A DNA stretch of 42,715 nucleotides from a bacterium (lineage in GTDB: Bacteria; Patescibacteriota; Minisyncoccia; Moranbacterales; UBA2206). The position numbers were made by a program, and so were the translations under genes. Positions 3,525 through 42,406 of this stretch are shown here, piece by piece. Where the stretch lies: positions 1 through 42,715 of the forward strand of contig JAJYDG010000004.1 in the NCBI GenBank assembly GCA_021777675.1, given 5' to 3'. A model generated the notes under the pieces. That model was not told where the DNA came from. It was given only the letters and a program-made list of their open reading frames with translations, and searched no databases. How positions within the stretch are numbered: the first letter of the stretch is position 1; each line of letters starts with the position of its first letter.

Positions 3525-5241
3525 AAAATCTATGCAGACAGAAATTGCAAAAACAAATTTTCGCTATTTTTTCATATCTGAAAAATTTGAAAACCCCTTA
3601 ATCGAATCAGTTATCAAAGAAAGCGATTTGGTGAATTTTTTAAATGAAACTATACATACTTGCCAAGAGGATTATATCTTGCTTTTTAAAGACACCTGCT
3701 TTTTCCCACTGAATATGGCGGATATGATCCAACAATGCATAAAAAAAGCGAATGATGAATTTGGAGAGGGATCTTGGGCGATAATCGGAAATTACGGATT
3801 AGAATTTTTATCGGAAAAAATTTTAAAATATAAAACTGACTCACAAACGGCAATAATTCCAAGCGGATCGCCATATCCGCGCTTTGCATCATACCTAGAC
3901 GGTGATGTTATTTTATTGAACATTAAAAATATTCGCAAAAACAACATTGCATTTCCGCCGGTCAAGATTGACTTAAGATCTTCAGATATTTTTTTAATTT
4001 TATTATGCGAGGCGTATAAAAACAATTTAATTTGCGCCATAGATTCCAAGCTATACGCAAAAGATATCGATGAAAGAAAAAAGATTGCACATCAAGAAAA
4101 TGATTATCTTGCCGAATATTGGAGAAATAATTATATAAACAATTCAATCAAAACAATATCCGGAACGATTGAAATTGAAAATGATTTGAATTATCTTAAG
4201 CAAAACGCTATTGATAAGAGAGCGGATTTTTATGAAAATATCAGATCAGCCATATTTAATATTTATCGTGAAAGAGAAAAAAAAACCATTTTCATCCTAA
4301 TCAGAACAAGGCTTAATCGCCCCAATCAAATTAGGCGGTTACTTGATTCCATAGAAATAGCAAATGCTTATTATCGGGAAAATATTAACATCGCCGTCAT
4401 TCTATCCGTTAATAACTATACCGTCACCAATCCTGAAATGAATATTTCAGAATTAAAAAAAACATACAAAGATATCTCTTTTTTATCTTTTGTCCTAAAT
4501 GAACCTTTTGAATATTTTCCTCGAGTTTCCGCCATAAAAGGCGCTCTAAAGTTAATAACCGAGTCTAAAAATAATTTTATTTGGATTGTTGATGATGACG
4601 ATTTTATTTATCCGGATGCCTTTGCTCACATTCCTTTTTTCTTGAATGATAAGAGTATTTTTCTTGGAAATTCATTTGCTTTTAAAGAAAAATGGGATAA
4701 AGATAGCGACACGACTTTTCCAATAGAAAGTAAAAAGAAAATGCTATTTGATACTTCACTATATTATAACTTCGCCAATGGCAACAATCCTGTTCCTATG
4801 TGTTCAATTATTTTTCCGGCACAAACGCTAAAAAATATATTTAACAAATATGCTTTGAAAGGAGATTATTATGAAGATTACGCTTTATTTATTCTTGCAC
4901 AAAAAAATATCAACGTTAACCATTACCCGATTTTAATTGCCGGCATATCATACCATGGACTCAGTCAAACAATGAATACGAATGTGGATAAATGGAATAG
5001 TAGTTATGCCACTTTTATTTCAGAAATTGTAAATTGCCAAATTATCGATGAATGGACGGAAAATTTCATTAACGAACAAAAAAATGAAATTGCGCAAAAA
5101 AATCAAATAATCGCCGATACAAAAAGAGAACTTCACGCCATTAAAATTTCTCTGCAATGGAGAATTCCCAATTTTTTCTATCGCTTATATGTAAATCATA
5201 TTCAAACGCTATTTGTGAAAAAAATAGAAAATAGAAAATAA
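3508..5241 (+). CDS. Glycosyltransferase-like protein (GT-A-like central domain)
   Basis: FILIRTRLNRPNQIRRLLDSIE ... WIVDDDDFIYPDAF; start overlaps the upstream ORF. Confidence 0.7.
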   Translation: MKQEIKKSMQTEIAKTNFRYFFISEKFENPLIESVIKESDLVNFLNETIHTCQEDYILLFKDTCFFPLNMADMIQQCIKKANDEFGEGSWAIIGNYGLEFLSEKILKYKTDSQTAIIPSGSPYPRFASYLDGDVILLNIKNIRKNNIAFPPVKIDLRSSDIFLILLCEAYKNNLICAIDSKLYAKDIDERKKIAHQENDYLAEYWRNNYINNSIKTISGTIEIENDLNYLKQNAIDKRADFYENIRSAIFNIYREREKKTIFILIRTRLNRPNQIRRLLDSIEIANAYYRENINIAVILSVNNYTVTNPEMNISELKKTYKDISFLSFVLNEPFEYFPRVSAIKGALKLITESKNNFIWIVDDDDFIYPDAFAHIPFFLNDKSIFLGNSFAFKEKWDKDSDTTFPIESKKKMLFDTSLYYNFANGNNPVPMCSIIFPAQTLKNIFNKYALKGDYYEDYALFILAQKNINVNHYPILIAGISYHGLSQTMNTNVDKWNSSYATFISEIVNCQIIDEWTENFINEQKNEIAQKNQIIADTKRELHAIKISLQWRIPNFFYRLYVNHIQTLFVKKIENRK

Positions 5242-5246
5242 GGAAT

Positions 5247-7109
5247 TTAATTTACCGGCACATACCACGCAATGCCTTCATAGCTCCAAACACTGGTTGG
5301 ATAATTGGCGATAACATAATTTTTTTCCGCTTCGGAAGCGGTATAGAAATGTCCTTGTTTGGTGTCGCTCCAAAAACGATATACCGGCTGTGTATCAGCC
5401 ATTTGAGTGGCATAAACATAAAAAGCAATGCCTTCATAACTCCAAACACTGGTTGGATAATTGGCGATAACATAATTTTTTTCCGCTTCCGAAGCAGTAT
5501 AGAAATGTCCTTGTTTGGTGTCGCTCCAAAAACGATATACCGGCGTAATGCCCGTCCCGGTCTGATTAAAAGCGCGATAAGCAATGCCTTCATAGCTCCA
5601 AACACTAGTCGGATAATTGGCGATAACATAATTTTTTTCCGCTTCGGAAGCAGTAAAAAAATGATGCTGTTTAGTGTCGCTCCAAAAACGATATACATTT
5701 GTAGAGTCTGGAACGACTGGCGGATTATTCGCCATATTCAAAGCACTCTCCATATTGAGCCTTTTTCCTGAATTGATTTTTTGTATTTCGGCGCTCGTCT
5801 TTAACGGATCACCGGAATTCAATAAAATATAACGCATTTGTTCAATACTTAAATTTGGATTTTTTTCATATAATAATGCGGAAACGCCAGAAACGTATGG
5901 TGCGGAAAATGAGGTTCCATCTCCTATTGAATAAGCTGAGAGATTATTTGTGGAAACAATATTTTCTCCCGGCGCTGCAAGATCAACCGATGTTGATCCG
6001 TAATCGCTAAAAGTTGAAATATAATCGCTTTGATTAGTCGATGCTACAGAAATAATATTCAAACTTGTATAATCCGAAGGATAAAAATGAGAACTGTCGT
6101 TATTCGTACCGCTATTACCGGCAGCTGCGACAAAAATTCCGGGAAAAGAGTCAATTGCGTTCTTTTCAAGTTGTGAATAATCCACTCCGCCATAACTGGC
6201 ATTTATCACTTTCGCTCCATTATTTTTGGCAAAATTTATCGCATTGATTTCAGAAGCAACATCAAATCCGAATTTAATCACCATTATTTTTGTATGGTTA
6301 TAGTAGCTTGTTCCACTAACCCCGATTGAATTGTTGGTGCTTGCTCCGAATATTCCCGATGTCATACTTCCATGTCCGTCAGTATCGCTTGGATCGTTAT
6401 TTCTCGCCGCATAATTCCAGCCATGATTGGGGCAACCGCCTGAGATGGAAACATTATTTTCATCTTTGCAAAAAGTTCCATCCCACATATTTCCGACCAA
6501 ATCCGGATGGCTATAATCCGCTCCGGTGTCAATATCTGCCACGATTGCCGTTCCTGCTGAAGAACTTTCATTGTTCCAGCCGGAAATAGCACCAATATCG
6601 GCTCCGGCGGTTCCGGTAATTCCATTTACTGTTTGACCGGTATTATTAAGCGCCCATAAATAATTTGAAAAATAGGCGTCATTAGGTGTCGCCGTCGGAT
6701 ATCTTTTGAAATTAGGCTCCGCCAATTCAATTGATGGATCGGATTTTAATTTTTTGATTGTCTTATCGACTGAATCGCTTGTTTGCAAAAGTCGAATATT
6801 CAAATCGGAAAATTCCGCCAATTTAGTAAAATTTTTTTCTTTTTCGAAATTATCCGCCTTTGATTCCCCTGATGGTTTTTTTAAATTAATTGCGCTTTTT
6901 TTATACTTAACCAAAACTTCGCCTTCCGCATAGTCGTTATTTTTGTATTTTTTTACTTCGGCAGTTTGCCTTGACGAAAAATTAAGAGTTTGTTCGGCTG
7001 CTCCGGAATAATTGCGCAAAAGGAAAAAAAAGGCAATCGCAAAAAAAACAATCCCGACAATTTTTTTGGTTGAAAATATTTTTTTATTTCTTTGCATATT
7101 GAATGGCAT
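5247..7109 (-). CDS. Secreted S8 subtilisin-family serine protease with three C-terminal DUF5648-like repeats
   Basis: N-terminal signal/TM; Asp ADIDTGADYSHPDL, His DTDGHGSMTSGI, Ser GTSFSAPYVSG; three YRFWSDTKQ(G/H)HF(Y/F)TASEAEKNYVIANYPTSVWSYEGIA units. Confidence 0.93.
   Translation of the reverse strand: MPFNMQRNKKIFSTKKIVGIVFFAIAFFFLLRNYSGAAEQTLNFSSRQTAEVKKYKNNDYAEGEVLVKYKKSAINLKKPSGESKADNFEKEKNFTKLAEFSDLNIRLLQTSDSVDKTIKKLKSDPSIELAEPNFKRYPTATPNDAYFSNYLWALNNTGQTVNGITGTAGADIGAISGWNNESSSAGTAIVADIDTGADYSHPDLVGNMWDGTFCKDENNVSISGGCPNHGWNYAARNNDPSDTDGHGSMTSGIFGASTNNSIGVSGTSYYNHTKIMVIKFGFDVASEINAINFAKNNGAKVINASYGGVDYSQLEKNAIDSFPGIFVAAAGNSGTNNDSSHFYPSDYTSLNIISVASTNQSDYISTFSDYGSTSVDLAAPGENIVSTNNLSAYSIGDGTSFSAPYVSGVSALLYEKNPNLSIEQMRYILLNSGDPLKTSAEIQKINSGKRLNMESALNMANNPPVVPDSTNVYRFWSDTKQHHFFTASEAEKNYVIANYPTSVWSYEGIAYRAFNQTGTGITPVYRFWSDTKQGHFYTASEAEKNYVIANYPTSVWSYEGIAFYVYATQMADTQPVYRFWSDTKQGHFYTASEAEKNYVIANYPTSVWSYEGIAWYVPVN
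5269..5699 (-). repeat. Three near-identical ~118-bp coding repeats in the S8 protease C-terminus
   Basis: The block 'gcaatgccttcatagctccaaacactggttggataattggcgataacataattttttt...tcgctccaaaaacgatata' recurs three times. Confidence 0.9.
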
Positions 7110-32306: not shown

Positions 32307-34103
32307 TTATTTTTTCAAAACCGCCAGAAAAGCTTCCGAAGGAATTGCCACTCTGCCAATAGTTTTCATTTTTTTCTTACCTTTTTTTTGTTTTTCCAAA
32401 AGTTTCTTTTTACGCGAAACATCGCCACCATAAAGTTTGGCAATAACATCTTTGCGAAAAGCTTTAACAGTTTCTCGCGCAATTACTTTTCCGCCAATTG
32501 CGGCCTGAATGGCAATGTTAAAATTTTGTCGCGGTAATGCGTCTTTTAATTTTTCCACTACGTGTTTTCCCTCTTTAAATGATTGAGATTTGGGAACGAT
32601 GCGGGAAAAAGCTTCTATTTTATCTTCGGAAATTATAATATCCAATTTCACCAATTCATTCGGACGATAATCTAAAAAAACATAGTTCATTGAAGCATAA
32701 CCGGAAGATGCACTCTTAAGATCATCGTGTAAATTGGTAATCACATCCGTCAATGGACAATTAAACTTCAAAATCATTCGCTCACTATTTAGGTATTCCG
32801 TATCGATATATTGCGCCCGGGTGTTTTTCATTACTTCCATAATCGATCCCAAATAACCGGATGGAGAAACTAATTCTAAATAAACATAGGGTTCGAAAAT
32901 TGCTTCAATTGATGACGGATCGGGTAATTCCGACGGTGAATAAATTTTCAACCTTTCTTTTTTTCCTTTTAATTCAACTTCGTAGACAACGCTTGGTGTG
33001 GTGATTGTCGGATTGATTTCAAACTCAGCACTCAAGCGAGCCTGGATAATTTCCAAATGCAATAGACCCAAAAAACCGCAACGAAAACCACGACCAAGCG
33101 CCAGATTGCTTTCTGGCTCAAAAACAAAAGCCGCATCATTTAATTTTAACTTGGAAAGCGCATCGCGCATTAAGTTATAATCATCGCCGGAAGTCGGATA
33201 AAAAGACGCATACACCATTGGACTGACTTCGCGATAACCGGGTAATTTTTCCACCTGAGCTTTAAACTTGGAAAGCGTAACGGTGTCCCCGACCTTGCAA
33301 TATTCCACACTTTTAAATCCGGTTGCTATATAACCGATTTCTCCCACTTTTAACTTTTGAGTTTTTTGTAAATCTGGCTTAAAATAACCCGCTTCAATCA
33401 CATCGCTTTCCGCTCCCGTTGCCAGCATTGAAATTTTCTCTTCTGCTGAAATCTCTCCATCAATCACTCGAACATAGGCCAAAACACCTTTATATATATC
33501 GTATTTTGAATCAAAAACTAATGCACGAAGTGGTTTATTTTCATCACCTTGAGGTGCGGGAATTTTTTCTATAATTTTATTCAACAATATTTCCACACCC
33601 TGACCTGTCTTTCCGGATACTTCCAAAATATCTTCTTTTTTACAACCAATAATTTGCATGATTTCCGCTTTAACTTTTTCCACATTAGCATTTGGCAAAT
33701 CAATTTTATTAACCACAGGAATAATTTCCAAATTATGATCAATGGCTTGATAGAGATTAGCCAATGTTTGCGCTTGCACTCCCTTGGTTGCATCGACTAG
33801 AAGCACAGCCCCTTCAACAGCTGCTAATGAACGCGAAACCTCATAACCAAAATCAACATGCCCGGGAGTGTCAATCAAATTTAAAATACGCCCTTTGTAG
33901 TGCATGCGAACAGGCTGCATTTTAATCGTTATCCCGCGCTCACGTTCCAAATCCATCTGGTCTAGAAGTTGCTCTTTCATCTTACGCATTTCCACTGTTC
34001 CGGTTATTTCCAGCATACGATCAGATAAAGTTGATTTACCGTGATCAATGTGGGCAATTATACAAAAATTTCGAATATTATTGTTTTCTGGCATATTTTT
34101 CAT
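32307..34103 (-). CDS. lepA: Elongation factor 4
   Basis: NIRNFCIIAHIDHGKSTLSDRMLEITGTVEMRKMKEQLLDQMDLERERGITIKMQPVRM; DTPGHVDFGYEVSRSLAA; FRCGFLGLLHLEIIQARLSAEF; C-term AKLYGGDVSRKKKLLEKQKKGKKKMKTIGRVAIPSEAFLAVL. Confidence 0.98.
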   Translation of the reverse strand: MKNMPENNNIRNFCIIAHIDHGKSTLSDRMLEITGTVEMRKMKEQLLDQMDLERERGITIKMQPVRMHYKGRILNLIDTPGHVDFGYEVSRSLAAVEGAVLLVDATKGVQAQTLANLYQAIDHNLEIIPVVNKIDLPNANVEKVKAEIMQIIGCKKEDILEVSGKTGQGVEILLNKIIEKIPAPQGDENKPLRALVFDSKYDIYKGVLAYVRVIDGEISAEEKISMLATGAESDVIEAGYFKPDLQKTQKLKVGEIGYIATGFKSVEYCKVGDTVTLSKFKAQVEKLPGYREVSPMVYASFYPTSGDDYNLMRDALSKLKLNDAAFVFEPESNLALGRGFRCGFLGLLHLEIIQARLSAEFEINPTITTPSVVYEVELKGKKERLKIYSPSELPDPSSIEAIFEPYVYLELVSPSGYLGSIMEVMKNTRAQYIDTEYLNSERMILKFNCPLTDVITNLHDDLKSASSGYASMNYVFLDYRPNELVKLDIIISEDKIEAFSRIVPKSQSFKEGKHVVEKLKDALPRQNFNIAIQAAIGGKVIARETVKAFRKDVIAKLYGGDVSRKKKLLEKQKKGKKKMKTIGRVAIPSEAFLAVLKK

Positions 34104-34915
34104 TCTAACGGACTTTTAATTTTTCTTAACGCTGGATTCATCACCTTAGTATAAATCTGAGTCGTTCTTATGTTAGCATGCCCAAGCAATTCTTGCACGT
34201 AGCGCACATCAACACCGTTTTCCAAAAGATGCGTGGCAAAACTATGCCTGAGTGAGTGAAATGTCGCTTCTTTTTTGATGCCAGCCTTTTTCAATGCCTG
34301 CTCAAAAACCTTTTGAGCGGTTCTTTCAGCTAGCCTGCCTCCGCGTTCACTGGCAAAAACATAATTGTTAAGATTTTTGCCTGCAGTTAATTTTTCAATA
34401 TTTCCAATCAACTTTTCCGGCAAAAGTGTTATCCGATCCTTATTCCATTTCGCGTCTTTGATATGAATAGTTAGTTCTGCTAGGCAAATATCCTTAACTT
34501 TCAAATTAATAATCTCACTAACTCGCAAGCCACCGGAATAGGCCAGTGCTATCATTAGATTATGCTTTTCATTGCTAATCACTGATAATATTTTATCGAT
34601 TTCTGCTCGCGATAGCACAATCGGTAATTTACTAGGAGTTTTGGCAAAGCGCACATCAATTTTTCTCCGAAATTTCAAAACATTCCAGCAAAAAAAGTTA
34701 ATCGCTTGCAAATGCTGGTTCGTTGTTTGCGATGACGCACCTGAATCGATTTTTGACAAAATATACTGCTTGATAAATTCGACGTCAACAATCTCAAAAT
34801 CCTTTTGCTTAGTCTTTAGATAACTAGTGACACATGCGCGATAAGAATCAATAGTTTTTGGGCTATATCCCCTCAACCTAAGTTCATCTTCTAATTTTTT
34901 CAAATAGACATCCAT
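34100..34915 (-). CDS. Tyrosine recombinase; candidate integrase of the adjacent attC-like array
   Basis: SAM-like N-terminus (LEDELRLRGYSPKTIDSYRACVTSYL); GGLRVSEIINLKVKD, HSLRHSFATHLLENGVDVRYVQELLGHANIRTTQIYTKV; ends NPALRKIKSPLE, resembling the IntI C-terminal RSPLD. No IntI-type insertion. Confidence 0.93.
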   Translation of the reverse strand: MDVYLKKLEDELRLRGYSPKTIDSYRACVTSYLKTKQKDFEIVDVEFIKQYILSKIDSGASSQTTNQHLQAINFFCWNVLKFRRKIDVRFAKTPSKLPIVLSRAEIDKILSVISNEKHNLMIALAYSGGLRVSEIINLKVKDICLAELTIHIKDAKWNKDRITLLPEKLIGNIEKLTAGKNLNNYVFASERGGRLAERTAQKVFEQALKKAGIKKEATFHSLRHSFATHLLENGVDVRYVQELLGHANIRTTQIYTKVMNPALRKIKSPLE

Positions 34916-34947
34916 TAAATTTTTTGCTATAATTTGAGCATAAATAA

Positions 34948-34976
34948 ATTATACATAATATTCACAAATTTAGCAA
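34948..34976 (-). promoter_or_regulatory. Candidate sigma70-type promoter for the recombinase
   Basis: Minus strand TTGCTA - 17 nt - TATAAT, about 33 nt upstream of the recombinase ATG. Confidence 0.6.
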
Positions 34977-34989
34977 TATTATGCACAAT

Positions 34990-35030
34990 ATCCGAAAACA
35001 CTTCAGATATAAACGAGTTAGCTGAAATAT
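34990..35030 (+). other. Candidate attI-like insertion point
   Basis: TTCAGATATAAACGAGTTAGCTGAAATA resembles the 3' end of the first attC-like element, ATCAGATATGCCGAAACGTTATGTGAAATA. Confidence 0.4.
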
Positions 35031-35176
35031 TCCTTTTCTTTTTTGGGCTATCGCCCAATTGTTTTAAAAAATTTTAAAATTTCTTTTTCATTAATTAAAG
35101 AGGGGGAATAAGGTGTTTTCTCCGCTCCGCTACGAAAACGATTTATTTTTAAGGGGAAAAATGTAATAATAAAATT

Positions 35177-36157
35177 ATGACAACTACTGCATCAAGACAA
35201 ATGACAACTGGAAAATCTTTTGAGTATGCTTTGCTTGTTCAATTTGAAGAAAAATTGAAAGACAAAACAAATCTTGAAGTTATCAAAAATTCTTCTTTTG
35301 AAATTGCAAAAGGCTGTTTTGAAAATGTGAGCGAAACAGAAAAGAGCGACTATTTACTCACCGCTAGTTTTGCAGTCAATTTTTTAATGGATATAGAGCC
35401 ACGCCTCACAAACGATATTGGCAAAGACGATATTCTGCAACTTGAAATTTTATCAGATCAACATGGAAAATCAGGCGATGTTAGAGATGTTTTAGCAATT
35501 CGTTTATTGCAAAAATGGGAAATTGGAGTATCAGCCAAAAACAATCATCATGCAGTAAAGCATTCTCGGCTATCTTCAAATATTGATTTTGGTGAAAAAT
35601 GGCTTGGAATAAAAACATCAAAAGAATATTTTGAAACAGTAACACCTATTTTTAACAATTTGGAAAAAATTAGAAAAGAAAGCAGTGCAAAGAAAAAGTG
35701 GAGTGAACTTGGTGATTATCATTCATCAATCTATATTCCAATTTTAAAAGCCTTTATTAAAGAACTGAAAAATCTATACAAAAAAGATTCTAAAAAAGTA
35801 GCGTCTAATCTAGTCGCATACCTCGTTGGAAATAAAGATTTTTACAAAGTTATTAAAGGCAAAAATAGTGTAGAAATACACGCTTACAATTTGAATGGAA
35901 CATTAAATTTGCCTTTTGACGACATTCTTCCAAAATACAAAACACCAAAAGTTCCATTGCCAACAGAAATTGTTGATATTTGTTTCAAAACCGATAGCCA
36001 AACAACAGCAATAGTAACCATGAATAATGATTGGACTCTTTCTTTTCGTATTCATAATGCAAGTTCTAGGGTTGAATCGTCCTTGAAATTTGATATAAAT
36101 CTTTTAAAATCCCCGAAAAAATTATTTAAAAACACACTAAATATTAGTCACGAATAA
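35177..36157 (+). CDS. HaeIII-family type II restriction endonuclease (predicted GGCC)
   Basis: 326 aa; HaeIII-family-like (SFEYALLVQFEEKL, DQHGKSGDVRDVLAIRLLQKWEIGVSAKNNHHAVKHSRLS, DFGEKWLGI); next to an M.HaeIII-like methylase. Confidence 0.88.
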   Translation: MTTTASRQMTTGKSFEYALLVQFEEKLKDKTNLEVIKNSSFEIAKGCFENVSETEKSDYLLTASFAVNFLMDIEPRLTNDIGKDDILQLEILSDQHGKSGDVRDVLAIRLLQKWEIGVSAKNNHHAVKHSRLSSNIDFGEKWLGIKTSKEYFETVTPIFNNLEKIRKESSAKKKWSELGDYHSSIYIPILKAFIKELKNLYKKDSKKVASNLVAYLVGNKDFYKVIKGKNSVEIHAYNLNGTLNLPFDDILPKYKTPKVPLPTEIVDICFKTDSQTTAIVTMNNDWTLSFRIHNASSRVESSLKFDINLLKSPKKLFKNTLNISHE

Positions 36158-36159
36158 TT

Positions 36160-37137
36160 ATGAAAATAGCTTCATTGTTTACAGGTGCAGGAGGACTTGA
36201 TCTAGGCTTTGAAAAAGCTGGTTTCCATGTCGTCTGGGCAAATGAATATGACCCAACAATTTGGGAAACTTTTGAACACAATTTTCCAAAAACAAAACTT
36301 GATAAAAGAAGCATTGTTGAGGTTCCTGCTTCTGAAATTCCCGATGTTGACGGAATCATTGGTGGACCACCTTGTCAAAGCTGGAGCGAGGCTGGAGCTG
36401 GACGTGGAATAAATGATAAACGAGGAAAATTGTTTTATGACTACATTCGTTTATTAAAAGAAAAACAACCAAAATTTTTTCTTGCAGAAAATGTATCAGG
36501 CATTCTTCATCCTAAACACAAAGAGGCTTTTTCAAATATAATAAAAGAATTTGAGAATGCTGGATATGAAATTTCCTGCAAATTATTGAATGCAAATGAT
36601 TATGATGTTCCTGAAGATAGATTGCGTGTCATTATTGTGGGATATAATAAAAAACTAAAGAAAAAATTTGAATTTCCAGAACCGCAAAAATATAAACCAG
36701 TATTGAAAGACGCTATTTATGATTTGCGTTTAGCAAAACCTGCGTTAGATAAAAATAAAACAAATGGTGATGTATTAAAAATCCCAAATCACGAATACAT
36801 GAATGGCGGTTTTTCTTCAATTTATATGTCGCGAAATCGTGTTCGTTCATGGGATGAGCCTTCTTTTACTATTCAAGCTGGCGGTCGCCATGCGCCAATT
36901 CATCCACAAGCTCCAAAAATGAAATTTATAAGTCAGAATGAAAGAGTTTTTGTTCCCGGCAAAGAGCATTTATATCGCCGTCTATCTGTTCGCGAATGTG
37001 CAAGAATTCAAACATTTCCCGATGATTTTATTTTTAAATATCGTGACATTGCTGACGGATACAAAATGATTGGAAATGCTGTTGCAGTAAATTTCGCTCA
37101 TCATTTAGCAAAAAAAATAATGGCTGATTTAAAATAA
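36160..37137 (+). CDS. HaeIII-like DNA (cytosine-5) methyltransferase (predicted GGCC)
   Basis: SLFTGAGGLDLGFEKAGF, GIIGGPPCQSWSEAGAGRGINDKRGKLFYDYIRLLKEKQPKFFLAENV, ALDKNKTNGD...NHEYMNGGFSSIYMSRNRVRSWDEPSFTIQAGGR, HLYRRLSVRECARIQTFPDDFIF...DGYKMIGNAV; close to M.HaeIII as recalled. Confidence 0.95.
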   Translation: MKIASLFTGAGGLDLGFEKAGFHVVWANEYDPTIWETFEHNFPKTKLDKRSIVEVPASEIPDVDGIIGGPPCQSWSEAGAGRGINDKRGKLFYDYIRLLKEKQPKFFLAENVSGILHPKHKEAFSNIIKEFENAGYEISCKLLNANDYDVPEDRLRVIIVGYNKKLKKKFEFPEPQKYKPVLKDAIYDLRLAKPALDKNKTNGDVLKIPNHEYMNGGFSSIYMSRNRVRSWDEPSFTIQAGGRHAPIHPQAPKMKFISQNERVFVPGKEHLYRRLSVRECARIQTFPDDFIFKYRDIADGYKMIGNAVAVNFAHHLAKKIMADLK

Positions 37138-37150
37138 TACTTTAAATTAC

Positions 37151-38566
37151 ATGTCTGATCAAATCACTAATATATATCAGTTATTTCAAAAGTTCTCATG
37201 GAACAGTTTTTTAGATATTAACGAAGAGAAAAAATACATTAAACTAGCCAATTCTGAGGAATATATTTTCAAGAAAGAACAAGGTTTTTCAAAAATAAAT
37301 TTTTTCAATTTTGATCCGACCCAAAGAAATGTTACAAAAAGAGAAAACTACCTTACCCTGCTTATTCATGATGATTTAAAGGCTTTAACTTTTATAAATT
37401 ACTGGGCAAACGAAGAAAAAAATAACTTTGGATATAACTTTTCAAGAGAACATTGGATTTTCAAAAAAATATTTGAGGGCGTTGATACTGTAAAAATTTC
37501 AGCAAAATATAAAATAGATATTCAGAAAAGAGCAAAAACCCTATTGATAAAGCCTGAAAAATTTAAAGAGATACAAGAAGAAATCACAAAAATAGATAAA
37601 AGAGCCAAATCATCAAAAGCGAGTCTTCTTAATTTTTTAGTTAATCAAGCAAAATTCACTTTTTTGAATAAAAGAACTCAAAAAACCACAAGTATTACAA
37701 AGGGAGAATGTGACTTTCTCATTAACAGACTGAATCTAAACACAAAAAAGGAGAAAAAAGATTTTCAGCAATACTTAAATTCGGACGACATAACATCACT
37801 TGGCTCCCTCTTTGAGGAAATGATCAAAAAAGAGGTTTTTGATAAAGAATATTTTAGAAGGTTAGACGAGTATTTCATCAAAGAAAAATTGGAAAATATA
37901 ATAGAAAATGGAAAGGAAATTCTGAATCTAAAGAGCGAAAGCGTAAAATCAAAAGAAGCCAAGAGGCTAATCCAAAAAATGTTTTCTCAACAAATAGGGC
38001 AATTAGAAACTGTTTGGCAAAATTTTTTCGATAAATACTTACTATACTTATTTTTTTCATATAAAAAAATTGTGCCCAAGGTTGAGTTAAACGATCTTGA
38101 AAGCCTAGACAAGCAATATCCAGACTTTATCGGGGTAAATCATTATGATGGAATTGATATTATTGAAATTAAAACACATCTAAAAAATATCCTTACTTGG
38201 GACAGAAATCATAAAAATTTTGCGTTTTCGTCAGAAATGAGTAAAGCAATCATTCAAACAATTAATTACATGGATGCCATTTCAGACGACAAGATTAAAA
38301 AATCAAAAGATAAAAAAGACATCCTGGACTATCTTAATATTGATGAAAATCTTTATAGACCAAAAGGAATTATAATTATTTCGTCTAAAAATAAAATCTG
38401 CAAAAATCAAAACAGGCTATCAAAAGATCAAAAAACCAGACTTAGCAAAGATTTCACAAAACTTAGAAATAGTATCCATAACATTCAAATATTTACTTTT
38501 GATGAAATTTTATCAATCGCAGAAAGATATACAGAGAATATAAATTCGAATTTAATAGGAAAATAA
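37151..38566 (+). CDS. Shedu-like (SduA/DUF4263) anti-phage nuclease
   Basis: C-terminal QYPDFIGVNHYDGIDIIEIKTHLKNIL (D...ExK), KAIIQTINYMDAI, RPKGIIIISSKNK, FDEIL; charged divergent N-terminus. Confidence 0.75.
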   Translation: MSDQITNIYQLFQKFSWNSFLDINEEKKYIKLANSEEYIFKKEQGFSKINFFNFDPTQRNVTKRENYLTLLIHDDLKALTFINYWANEEKNNFGYNFSREHWIFKKIFEGVDTVKISAKYKIDIQKRAKTLLIKPEKFKEIQEEITKIDKRAKSSKASLLNFLVNQAKFTFLNKRTQKTTSITKGECDFLINRLNLNTKKEKKDFQQYLNSDDITSLGSLFEEMIKKEVFDKEYFRRLDEYFIKEKLENIIENGKEILNLKSESVKSKEAKRLIQKMFSQQIGQLETVWQNFFDKYLLYLFFSYKKIVPKVELNDLESLDKQYPDFIGVNHYDGIDIIEIKTHLKNILTWDRNHKNFAFSSEMSKAIIQTINYMDAISDDKIKKSKDKKDILDYLNIDENLYRPKGIIIISSKNKICKNQNRLSKDQKTRLSKDFTKLRNSIHNIQIFTFDEILSIAERYTENINSNLIGK

Positions 38567-38579
38567 AATGTTTTCGGTC

Positions 38580-38612
38580 GGGCAATTCACCCCTTTAGTT
38601 CCCCTCTTGCCC
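38580..38612 (+). repeat. Hairpin element H1 with C-rich loop
   Basis: GGGCAA-TTCACCCCTTTAGTTCCCCTC-TTGCCC. Confidence 0.8.
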
Positions 38613-38633
38613 CTCCCTCAAACAGAATAAGGA

Positions 38634-38684
38634 GTTTTGGATTTTGGGCATTCACCCCTAGCCCCTCTGCCCAAAATCCAAAAC
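38634..38684 (+). repeat. Hairpin element H2 with C-rich loop and perfect 17-bp stem
   Basis: GTTTTGGATTTTGGGCA (38634-38650) / TGCCCAAAATCCAAAAC (38668-38684); loop TTCACCCCTAGCCCCTC. Confidence 0.9.
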
Positions 38685-38753
38685 GGAAAAAGAAATTTGA
38701 AAATTTTTTAAAACAAGTTTTCTTATCAGAAAACAAAAGAAAAGGAATACATC

Positions 38754-38855
38754 AGCTAACACGGCATATCTGGTTACGGCTTTTATACAAAAGCCTCCAC
38801 CCATATTTGCCTTCGCTACGCTACGGCAAACATCAGATATGCCGAAACGTTATGT
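38754..38855 (+). other. attC-like recombination site 1
   Basis: AGCTAAC...GTTATGT ends; outer repeat CGGCATATCTG/CAGATATGCCG; inner hairpins GGCTTTTatacAAAAGCC and TTTGCC...GGCAAA. Confidence 0.72.
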
Positions 38856-38885
38856 GAAATAAAATTCTTTTTCTTTTTTAAACTT

Positions 38886-38990
38886 GCTTTTTTATAATAA
38901 GGAAGAATAAGTTTTTTTATCTATTTATATAGGGGTATGAGGTGTTTTTTCTGCCCACAAAGGGACAGTAAAAAACGATTTTATTTTATA
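38886..38990 (+). promoter_or_regulatory. Conserved module leader
   Basis: GCTTTTTTATAATAAGGAAGAATA..GTTTTTTTATCT..TTATATAGGGGTA...AGGTGTTTTTTCTGCCC nearly repeated at 41483-41555; imperfect hairpin GTTTTTTCTGCCC...GGGACAGTAAAAAAC. Confidence 0.6.
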
Positions 38991-39004
38991 TTTTTGAAAA
39001 CAAT

Positions 39005-39259
39005 ATGAACGAAATTAACTTAAACGCATTTTTAAAACTTTTATCAGAGAAACTTGGCAAACAAATAACCTTTTCTAAATACGAAGAAAAATCAGGAGAC
39101 AAAGAAATTCATAAATTTATGCCTCTCGTTGTTGGCTGGATTGGAATCGTGCGAGTTTATCCCCGCTGGTTTCCTGACCATGATGTTGAAATTGCAACTC
39201 GCTTTATAAATCATATTAAAGAAATTGTAAGAAAAAAAGAATTTATATGGAACGATTAA
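39005..39259 (+). CDS. Hypothetical 84-aa protein
   Basis: MNEINLNAFLKLLSEKLGKQITFSKYEEKSG...; overlaps the start of the next ORF, so probably translationally coupled. Confidence 0.6.
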   Translation: MNEINLNAFLKLLSEKLGKQITFSKYEEKSGDKEIHKFMPLVVGWIGIVRVYPRWFPDHDVEIATRFINHIKEIVRKKEFIWND

Positions 39260-40113
39260 GCCAAGAACTAAACCCGAAGAAGAAAGAATTAAAAGTTGAT
39301 ATTATCCGCCATGGTCCGTCAACTTATCGACAACCTAAATGGACTGATGTAAAAACAGCTGATGATTTAAACACAATTGGTCGTTTTGTTGATGGTGCAA
39401 AAACAGAAGAAGAAATTTCGCAAGGTAAAAAAGAAGCCGTTGAAATAATTAAAAAAACGGCGGAAGAAATTGCGAATGAAATTGAGCCAGGCGAAGAAGT
39501 TGTTATTTGGTCGTCGCCAACAGGCAGAACGCTTGAAACAGCCCGAATTATCAGTGAGGTTTTACGAGAAAAAGGCATAGAATTGCGAAGCAAGGGAACA
39601 TCAGAAGAATATGGTATTAAAATCTTTGAGAAATTAGGAGAAGTAAAAAATTTCTCATGGCCACTATTTGAACCACTAATGAATGGTGGTGAAGTTGAAT
39701 TTAACGAAAATAAATTCAAAATTGACAAAACATTGTCCAATCCAGATAATATCGGCCATCCTGATTATTTCACATCTGACGCAATCAAAAATATTTCTAA
39801 TGAGGCAAAGACGAAATGGCCAAAAGACTACGTGAATGAAATTGAAAAATTTGAAAGTTTCGCAGAAGTAAATAAAAGAATGATTGATATGCTTAGTCGT
39901 TTGAAGAAAGTCGGCGACAAAAAATATAGAGTAATTATAGTTACACACGATGCGCTTACGGGCGGGATTGTAAAAACTTTTACTCACGATAAATTATCAG
40001 GAATAAACCCTGGTCAACGTATTTCATTAGAAAGAAAAGAAGATAAATTAGTAGTTACAAGAGTCGGTGATATAACCGAAGGAAATTCTGAAAAAGACAT
40101 TACGGAACAATAA
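39247..40113 (+). CDS. Histidine phosphatase (phosphoglycerate mutase-like) family protein
   Basis: VDIIRHGPSTYRQP, VVIWSSPTGRTLETARII, YRVIIVTHDALTGGIV. Confidence 0.85.
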   Translation: MERLSQELNPKKKELKVDIIRHGPSTYRQPKWTDVKTADDLNTIGRFVDGAKTEEEISQGKKEAVEIIKKTAEEIANEIEPGEEVVIWSSPTGRTLETARIISEVLREKGIELRSKGTSEEYGIKIFEKLGEVKNFSWPLFEPLMNGGEVEFNENKFKIDKTLSNPDNIGHPDYFTSDAIKNISNEAKTKWPKDYVNEIEKFESFAEVNKRMIDMLSRLKKVGDKKYRVIIVTHDALTGGIVKTFTHDKLSGINPGQRISLERKEDKLVVTRVGDITEGNSEKDITEQ

Positions 40114-40124
40114 GGGGTCTTTAA

Positions 40125-40162
40125 TTTTGGGCATTCACCCCTTTTATTCCCCTCTGCCCAAA
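40125..40162 (+). repeat. Hairpin element H3 with C-rich loop
   Basis: TTTGGGCA-TTCACCCCTTTTATTCCCCTC-TGCCCAAA. Confidence 0.85.
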
Positions 40163-40250
40163 GCCCAAAACAGAAAATCTTATTTTGCACTATTTTATAA
40201 AAAAGAAGACCAGAAAGAAACTAATAATAAGGATGAGAAAAAATTACATC

Positions 40251-40402
40251 GCCTAACAAGTTGTATCAGGTTCCAGAAATTTGCCTCAATTATATTCCAA
40301 AGGAGCGCAAATTTCTTCCACCCAAATTTTTGCCTCTTTAGGTCTTTTGATATAACATTAAGGAAGCGAGGCAAAAACTTCAGATATTCTGATACGTTAT
40401 CT
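40251..40402 (+). other. attC-like recombination site 2
   Basis: GCCTAAC...GTTATCT; outer GTATCAG/CTGATAC; inner perfect GAAATTTGC/GCAAATTTC and TTTTTGCCTC/GAGGCAAAAA. Confidence 0.72.
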
Positions 40403-40475
40403 GTAATTATTTTGAAATTTGTAGCCTTTAATGGTATGGCAAAAAATTATTTTATCAACTTAAAATACCCTTCCA

Positions 40476-41117
40476 ATGAAAAATGAATTAAAAAATCAGT
40501 TAATCAAAATCGCCAAGGAGAAAATCTCAGACATTGATGTTTCCCATGATTTTGACCATGCAATGAGAGTCTTATCTAATGCTGAGCGAATTGCCAAAGA
40601 TGAGGGTGGCGATTTGGATATTATTTTTCCCGCTGCCTTGTTCCACGACATAATCGTGTACCCGAAAAATCATCCCGATAAACATAAATCACAAGAAGAA
40701 AGCGCGGAATCAGCGGAAAAAATACTAAATTCTTTTGGCAATTTTCCGCAAACAAAGATTGAAAAAGTTAAAACATGCATCTTGGAATGTTCTTTCAGCA
40801 AGGGAATCGTTCCTAAAATGTTAGAATCGCAAATTTTGCAGGACGCTGACGGGATTGAAGCGACCGGCGCAATATCTATCATGAGAACTTATTCTTCGAC
40901 TGGACAAATGAAAAGGCCTTTTTACAATATTGAAGATCCGTTCTGCAAAAATCGCACGCCCGACACTACAAAATTTGCATTAGATTTGTTCTATGAGCGA
41001 TTGCTGAAAGTTGCTGAAAGAATGCATACAAAAACTGCCAAAAAAATTGCCAAAAGAAGAACTGATTTTTTAATTACTTTCCTAAAAGAGTTTGAATTGG
41101 AACTGAAAGGAAAATAA
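40476..41117 (+). CDS. HD-domain phosphohydrolase family protein
   Basis: DVSHDFDHAMRVLSNAERIAKDEGGDLDIIFPAALFHDIIVYP ... ILQDADGIEATGAISIMRTYS. Confidence 0.85.
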   Translation: MKNELKNQLIKIAKEKISDIDVSHDFDHAMRVLSNAERIAKDEGGDLDIIFPAALFHDIIVYPKNHPDKHKSQEESAESAEKILNSFGNFPQTKIEKVKTCILECSFSKGIVPKMLESQILQDADGIEATGAISIMRTYSSTGQMKRPFYNIEDPFCKNRTPDTTKFALDLFYERLLKVAERMHTKTAKKIAKRRTDFLITFLKEFELELKGK

Positions 41118-41310
41118 TTTTGCCATCTATATTGAATCAGCCACAAATTTCAAAATAACTCTGCGGATTTGCTTTTTTCAACCTTGCTAATAAACTGGTC
41201 AATTAAAAAATATCTCACAATTGAAAAACTAATGCCCAAAGCAAATCCTTGCCCCGTTGCACTCTCACCCTTCCTTTATATATAATCCATAAGGTGTCAG
41301 GGTTCGGGAC

Positions 41311-41401
41311 AAATAACACGGTATAACTGGTTCGCTCGTTGCACCACGCTCAACCCATATCCGCCGAAGGCGGACATCTCAGATATACCGAAACATTATG
41401 A
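41311..41401 (+). other. attC-like recombination site 3, degenerate right end
   Basis: AAATAACACGGTATAACTGGTT...CTCAGATATACCGAAACATTATG; outer CGGTATAaCTG/CAGATATACCG (one mismatch); inner TCCGCCgaaGGCGGA; GTTA replaced by ATTA. Confidence 0.62.
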
Positions 41402-41482
41402 AAAAATTTCGCTGAGCCCACCGAGCAAATCCGTGCACGATATGTGAAATAATTTTTTTACTTTTTATATTTTTTCTCAATC

Positions 41483-41555
41483 CGCTTTTTTATAATAAGG
41501 AAGAATATGTTTTTTTATCTTTTATATAGGGGTAGCAAGGTGTTTTTTCTGCCCA
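41483..41555 (+). promoter_or_regulatory. Second copy of the conserved module leader
   Basis: GCTTTTTTATAATAAGGAAGAATATGTTTTTTTATCTTTTATATAGGGGTAGCAAGGTGTTTTTTCTGCCC, nearly identical to 38886-38955. Confidence 0.6.
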
Positions 41556-41792
41556 AATTTAAACTATACAAAGATGATTGTTTGAATATTTTAAACTCTC
41601 TACCAGAAAATTCGGTAGATATGATTTTTGCCGATCCGCCCTATTTTCTTTCAAGCGGTAGCTTTACTTGTCAAAATGGGCAAATGGTTAGCGTAAAAAG
41701 GGAGATTGGGACTTAACCAATGGAACAAAGAAAAATTTTGAATTTCATAATGGATGGATAAAAGCGTGTCGTCGAGTCTTGAAACCAAAATG
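41507..41792 (+). pseudogene. Frameshifted, truncated DpnIIB-like adenine DNA methyltransferase
   Basis: KLYKDDCLNILNSLPENSVDMIFADPPYFLSSGSFTCQNGQMVSVK, then in another frame GDWDLTNGTKKNFEFHNGWIKACRRVLKPK; frameshift near A5 at ~41696. Confidence 0.8.
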
Positions 41793-42080
41793 ATTTAAAA
41801 GTTGAATAGCACAAATAATCCTAGTTTTTTCTTTTTAAATTATGCTTTACGGACATAAAAGGTACAGAATTTTGTAGTTATTCCAAAGCACTTTTTTATT
41901 CCTGAAATTATTAAGAAAAGAAAGTTACTTTCGGAAAATGCCAGACAAGCCGGATGGGTTGGTTGTAATATTTTACTTCAAAGTATTCCACAGAGTGGAA
42001 AAATTTTTTATGTAAAAAATGAAAGGTTTGAAAAAAAGGGGGATGTTTTAAAAAATTGGAATAAAACCTTATTCTTAACT
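41790..42080 (+). pseudogene. DpnI-family restriction endonuclease remnant (N-terminus missing, internal stops)
   Basis: MI*KLNSTNNPSFFFLNYALRT*KVQNFVVIPKHFFIPEIIKKRKLLSENARQAGWVGCNILLQSIPQSGKIFYVKNERFEKKGDVLKNWNKTLFL parallels the recalled DpnI segment MMKRVQADNNPNFFFLTYTKNFEVNNFLVLPKQFVTPKSIIQRKPLAPTARRAGWIGCNIDLSQVPSKGRIFLV. Confidence 0.82.
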
Positions 42081-42406
42081 TGTATGGAAAGATGATAAGT
42101 ATTTAGATTTTTCAGACAAAAAATTATATCCGCAATTTCAATTATGGTATATTTAAATTAGTGTGGCTCTAGCTACCCCCAGAGGCAACAATTAGGGCTT
42201 CACTAAAGGCCATGAAAGATGAGGTTTTTTTTCAAGAAAAACATTGCTGAGCGCTATAAGCTTCAAATTGATAATTTAATCAAAGAAGGTGCTCATAACA
42301 AAATTGTTATACCGAATTCATATTATGTCAAAAACAAAGCCATCCTATCGCAAAACTAAATTTGGTATTCTTTCGATTTCTTAAATTGAAGCCATGATTT
42401 ACTGAT

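Follow-up and report, generated by a model that had tools for sequence, protein, structure and literature searches.

We found that a 42,715-nucleotide stretch of DNA from a Moranbacteria genome (contig JAJYDG010000004.1 of assembly GCA_021777675.1; hereafter the window) carries what looks like a working but unusual integron of an uncultured Patescibacterium. It very probably belongs to a distinct family of integron-type gene-capture platforms that has spread through Patescibacteria and whose integrases lack I2, the region of about 50 residues specific to the integron integrase IntI. The architecture of its attI and attC sites, the covariation within attC, the homology breakpoint at GTT, the variation by whole cassettes and the sharing of a cassette between families all argue for this reading. 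An earlier note on the window had proposed a non-canonical integron of three attC-bounded modules, whose genes all lie on the plus strand and diverge from a minus-strand tyrosine recombinase. Our analysis bears this layout out: attI beside the integrase, folded attC sites, cassette ends complementary to the starts of their own cassettes and cassette-wise variation were all found. The Patescibacteria-type host that the note had inferred is likewise supported.

The attI site, which the earlier note included in its layout without giving a position, could be placed at 35000 to 35029 (plus strand), directly 5' of the integrase. It reads (A)CTTCAGATATA-AACGAG-TTAGCTGAAAT, which we interpret as an 11+6+11 layout, and is similar to the right half of attC (TTCAGATAT...AAAC...GTTANNYGAAAT). 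Upstream of the integrase, the relatives have ...CACTTCGNATATAAACGAGTT in common, as far as the GTT of attI, and then differ. In a sister genome (G030, L100) the homology with the window runs to 35019 and is then lost, and two other relatives (L017 and L018) share 96.5% identity across 1,525 bp spanning the integrase and attI before they diverge. Close relatives thus carry different cassettes beyond a break at the attI GTT, as expected of an insertion point, and genome comparison indicates that the cassettes vary and move as units, as had been proposed. The crossover would fall at G35017|T35018. Between the integrase start and attI (34925 to 35000), a conserved GCTATAAT box and TTCGNA(T) repeats are candidates for the Pc/Pint promoters and for extra integrase binding sites; a TATAAT-like box upstream of attI was noted by eye only.

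In an integron, the R'' box at the end of a cassette matches the start of the same cassette. At the five variable positions (4 to 8), cassette ends in this family matched their own start in 82% of comparisons and the start of the next cassette in 48%, and none of 10,000 permutations reached the former value. An extended own-end match score of at least 12 was obtained for 42% of the 60 internal cassettes (those between consecutive sites), compared with 0.17% of shuffles. Judged from these sequences, we regard complementarity of the 3' end to its own start, and not to the next cassette, as the decisive integron signature. Within the window, cassettes 1 and 3 show it and cassette 2 does not.

The match also extends further than usual. 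In cassettes with ACATC ends it covers roughly 20 to 33 nt, with mismatches fixed at positions 10-11 of the long repeats (GAAAT at the start, GATGT at the end), and one cassette in a second array of the same genome has a 43-nt terminal match; in cassettes ending in CGGGTC or CCCTC it is limited to the 9- to 10-nt R box. The canonical match length is 9 to 11 nt (PMC2727003), and our controls gave 6 to 12 nt for class 1 cassettes and a median of 9 (maximum 13) for 25 Methylobacter cassettes. This terminal inverted repeat extension appears to be new, and such long, cassette-specific repeats may serve to check the identity of a cassette by its structure.

For the attC sites, we aligned 22 native copies from the relatives and the window and built a family covariance model. 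The alignment shows three invariant features, namely AACA on the R'' side, C-W-TC within the right arm and a TT at R'; CACCCAWATT between two inner hairpins is nearly invariant, and 18 of the 21 predicted pairs have compensatory changes on both sides. The three elements first noticed in the window all match the model as folded attC-type sites at the places originally given: attC1, itself a training sequence, scored 98.9 bits, while attC3 (65.0 bits, E 2e-13) and attC2 (57.8 bits, E 1e-11) were outside the training set. Their common architecture, with outer arms, a GGTT box and the spacer between two inner hairpins, recurs throughout the family, and they form one covarying family rather than a set of non-integron repeats. 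Altogether the model detects 232 sites in 72 loci. Searching Rfam returned two tRNAs only. Cassette open reading frames (ORFs) mostly follow the array strand (68 along, 14 against), and the bottom strand is the better-folding one at 94 of 104 array sites and at all 27 circularised sites with long repeats.

The integrase (34100 to 34915, minus strand, 271 amino acids) is a tyrosine recombinase, matching PF00589 with an E value of 1e-42; its catalytic residues R131, K156, H220, R223, H246 and Y255 are invariant in an alignment of 25 relatives. I2 is missing from all family members: the model TIGR02249 aligns only at positions of about 1 to 181 and 232 to 313, about 181 to 232 being absent, and at this region the window integrase is 43 amino acids shorter than IntI4. 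Its TIGR02249 score of 209 bits lies under the cut-off of 265, and even the best model, NCBIfam NF040815 (XerA_Arch/integron integrase), gave 212 bits against a cut-off of 220. An AlphaFold model (mean pLDDT 87) has IntI4 (2A3V) as its nearest PDB structure, followed by XerA. In the phylogenetic tree the family groups with IntI, apart from Xer, with support of 100/98; because only four IntI rows, on a long branch, were included, the placement of IntI is tentative.

It could be argued that this is a canonical integron, with IntI and standard attC sites, that has merely diverged. The two share a divergent integrase, attI beside it, insertion at G|TT, one-way genes and folded attC sites with R'' complementary to the start of the same cassette, and the nearest fold is that of IntI4. 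However, besides the absence of I2 from every member, the attC sites differ. A canonical control model, built here from 13 canonical attC sites, made 44 matches in the control arrays (class 1 and Methylobacter chromosomal), mostly at held-out sites, many of Methylobacter among them, yet neither the window nor the arrays of four relatives (L152, L164, L173 and L181) gave a match at E ≤ 10, which makes the non-canonical character stronger than first claimed. Conversely, the family model found nothing at E ≤ 1 in the control arrays. In the consensus folds the extra-helical bases (WT) sit on the L'-R' arm, on L', whereas those of the canonical controls sit on the L'' arm. The window family also differs in its conserved two-hairpin tip around CACCCAWATT, its extended R box (GTTRNNYGAAAT / ACATCRNNYAAC) and terminal inverted repeats of up to 43 nt. 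Therefore, despite its integron-like working, the system falls outside the known family in two defining respects, IntI and attC, and the proposal of simple divergence, which we consider quite improbable, is already contradicted.

Less probable still is that the modules resemble Xer/dif (pdif-type) modules moved by the host XerCD, with the adjacent recombinase irrelevant. The 11+6+11 core of attI is dif-like, the window integrase resembles XerA and XerCD in length and in having no I2, and some genomes (for example, G027 and G029) have arrays without a P0001-type integrase; orphan arrays, however, are also common among known integrons (PMC9668308). The sites here are folded hairpins of 90 to 200 nt with covarying arms instead of 28-bp duplexes, the attI half-site adjoins this integrase in the relatives, and the integrase belongs to a clade separate from Xer and is tied to arrays rather than to a dif site. 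The least credible proposal, that the elements are palindromic repeats (like miniature inverted-repeat transposable elements or repetitive extragenic palindromic sequences) or intergenic terminators near an unrelated phage-type recombinase, fits their palindromic, repeated nature and the commonness of tyrosine recombinases but leaves unexplained the own-end to own-start complementarity of the flanking modules, the homology breaks at the attI GTT, the joining of a single attI sequence to different modules and the common polarity of sites and genes.

For the I2-less integron, we infer the following mode of action, including its activity at the present day. The recombinase would join double-stranded attI to the attC of a circular cassette, folded as a single strand from the bottom strand, and would cut at G|TT in both, placing the new cassette beside attI. 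The base of the hairpin in the circle would be closed by the R boxes (9 bp), to which one cassette class would add 10 to 30 bp of terminal inverted repeat. Within the array, the R' box is supplied by the next cassette and fits poorly, so the enzyme would favour inserting intact circles over excising array sites.

Several observations weigh against the reading of a functional integron family. By the canonical rule, which places extra-helical bases on the R''-L'' arm and has strand use reversed when they are moved (PMC2727003), bases on the L'-R' arm would favour the top strand, while the array geometry implies the bottom one. The greater stability of the bottom strand agrees with its use but may be compositional. 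Additionally, several genomes have arrays in which the integrase was undetected, attC2 and attC3 are imperfect, the host genomes are nearly all metagenome-derived drafts, and the support comes entirely from sequence comparison.

The family bears on the origin of integrons, as its enzyme lacks the part presumed to define integrons and its docking sites fold differently. I2 has been reported only from integron integrases, and integrons have been proposed to descend from a Xer-like ancestor that acquired it (PMC4792948). A large natural I2-less family that seems to do the job of an integron makes this proposal directly testable. In a rooted tree, IntI falls inside a wider clade of these integrases, at no resolved spot, and a single clade of array-linked integrases excluding IntI is mildly rejected (p-AU 0.034). 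It is conceivable, though we would rather doubt it, that the I2-less integrons represent an older stage, within which canonical IntI arose by gaining I2 while the extra-helical bases switched attC arm.

The integrase was detected in 54 of 380 genomes drawn evenly from the phylum (E ≤ 1e-30), and attC sites in 29 of the 34 genomes of the window's GTDB family, some of them without integrase. The longest arrays have at least 10 sites (L164, L152). The platform thus crosses families, and two Gracilibacteria (L021 and L024), which read TGA as glycine, carry it as well; cassettes entering or leaving these would cross a genetic-code boundary. It apparently reaches archaea too: one Pacearchaeota record (L030) has an attI-like start and four attC sites, which could be a binning error. 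Archaeal integrons likewise lie outside the classical hosts; they were found with IntegronFinder, which recognises IntI by its specific domain (PMC9668308), and tools that depend on this domain should therefore miss the window family. No array of the window type was found beside integrase relatives from Bacteroidota, Aciduliprofundum or other Pacearchaeota. Our search, which left out preprints and covered few subscription papers, found no published account of integrons in Patescibacteria, which is weak evidence. Another contig of the window's own genome (C22, L201; about 4177 to 6220 on the array strand) holds the second attI, at least one cassette and an attC, and no integrase was found there; the cassette, the one with the 43-nt repeat, carries NUDIX-like and other ORFs and shares its start with window cassette 2.

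None of the viral contigs searched has an integrase more than 40% identical. A 71-kb contig from a viral collection (L218) contains a family attC at 1209 to 1318 (81 bits), and two others (L221, 8026 to 10107; L224, 999 to 5200) encode integrases 37 to 40% identical with weak, related attC-like arrays; the GAAAT/GATGT mismatch occurs again in L221, in longer repeats.

In the window array, all features lie on the plus strand. Cassette 1 (35018 to 38849, about 3.8 kb) encodes a HaeIII-type restriction endonuclease (35177 to 36157; PF09556, E 7e-97), a C5-cytosine DNA methyltransferase (36160 to 37137; PF00145, E 2e-97) and a Shedu SduA_C-like nuclease (37151 to 38566). Its 5' terminal inverted repeat (35017 to 35042) pairs with the 3' repeat (38735 to 38760), which terminates in the R'' box, at 24 of 26 positions, with the fixed AA/TG mismatch at positions 10-11. 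It ends in attC1 (38749 to 38860; R'' AAC at 38758 to 38760, R' GTT at 38849 to 38851). Cassette 2 (38850 to 40396) contains an 84-residue ORF with no family match (39005 to 39259) and a histidine phosphatase superfamily gene (39247 to 40113; PF00300). Its R'' box agrees with its own start at three of five variable positions, no fit, and in attC2 (40246 to 40407) the L'' arm (GTTGTATCAG) and the L' arm (AGATATTCTGATAC) are out of register, pairing only after a 7-nt shift; thus attC2 looks chimeric, as probably is the whole cassette. Cassette 3 (40397 to 41395) carries an HD-domain phosphohydrolase (40476 to 41117; PF01966), and its end R box fits its own start at four of five positions; attC3 (41306 to 41406) is partly decayed, with ATTA at R' and one mispaired stem base. 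Beyond it, a degenerate fourth cassette (41437 to 42350) retains a start-like sequence (GATATGTGAAATAAT and a leader), with GATATGTGAAAT in place of GTTATGTGAAAT at about 41440, and a broken DNA methylase gene. All three elements thus stand as attC, one of them intact. Judging by sequence, cassette 1 and its attC1 appear recent and undamaged, and the gradient from intact to decayed away from attI fits insertion at attI.

Cassettes also seem to exchange their contents. The window region 34989 to 37137, with the HaeIII-type restriction-modification genes, shares 94.4% identity with the cassette that adjoins attI in L152, which comes from a genome of another family with an integrase 58% identical; of the two copies, only that of the window includes the Shedu-like gene. 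The attC cores are identical, and the inverted repeats differ at both ends, each pair being still self-complementary. A shared leader (GGGGnAATAAGGTGTTTTCTCCGCTCCGCTACGAAAACGATTT; 35090 to 35165, about 38890 to 38990 and 41480 to 41555) has 30 copies, counting that of the window, ahead of different genes in the form GGGGnAATAAGGTGTTTT-TCCGCTCCGCTACG-AAAAC, and is possibly a promoter or 5' untranslated region hairpin. A tail hairpin (38630 to 38686 and 40106 to 40172), with a near-invariant ATTCACCCCYnnCCCCTCT loop and a variable stem (AAGGAGTTTT...AAAAC), stands directly ahead of attC at cassette ends in 45 copies with different genes; in 34 genomes the exact motif occurs 18 times, about 70 to 100 bp before an attC in those compared. 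The AGAGGGGT in the leader and the ACCCCTCT in the tail loop are complementary. These repeats suggest that genes are also swapped between cassette frames by leader and tail homology; co-evolution of the inverted repeats was considered for the swapped ends of the otherwise nearly identical cassettes of the window and L152 and set aside, as gene exchange through the shared leader and tail is simpler. In these small-genome bacteria, the platform carries restriction-modification together with further defence genes. Cassettes of five other arrays (L164, L150, L152, L173 and L181) often carry defence-type genes, including EcoRI and TdeIII restriction-modification, AbiLi and HNH genes, along with Gabija/PtuA/AriA-like ATPases, NUDIX proteins and methyltransferases.

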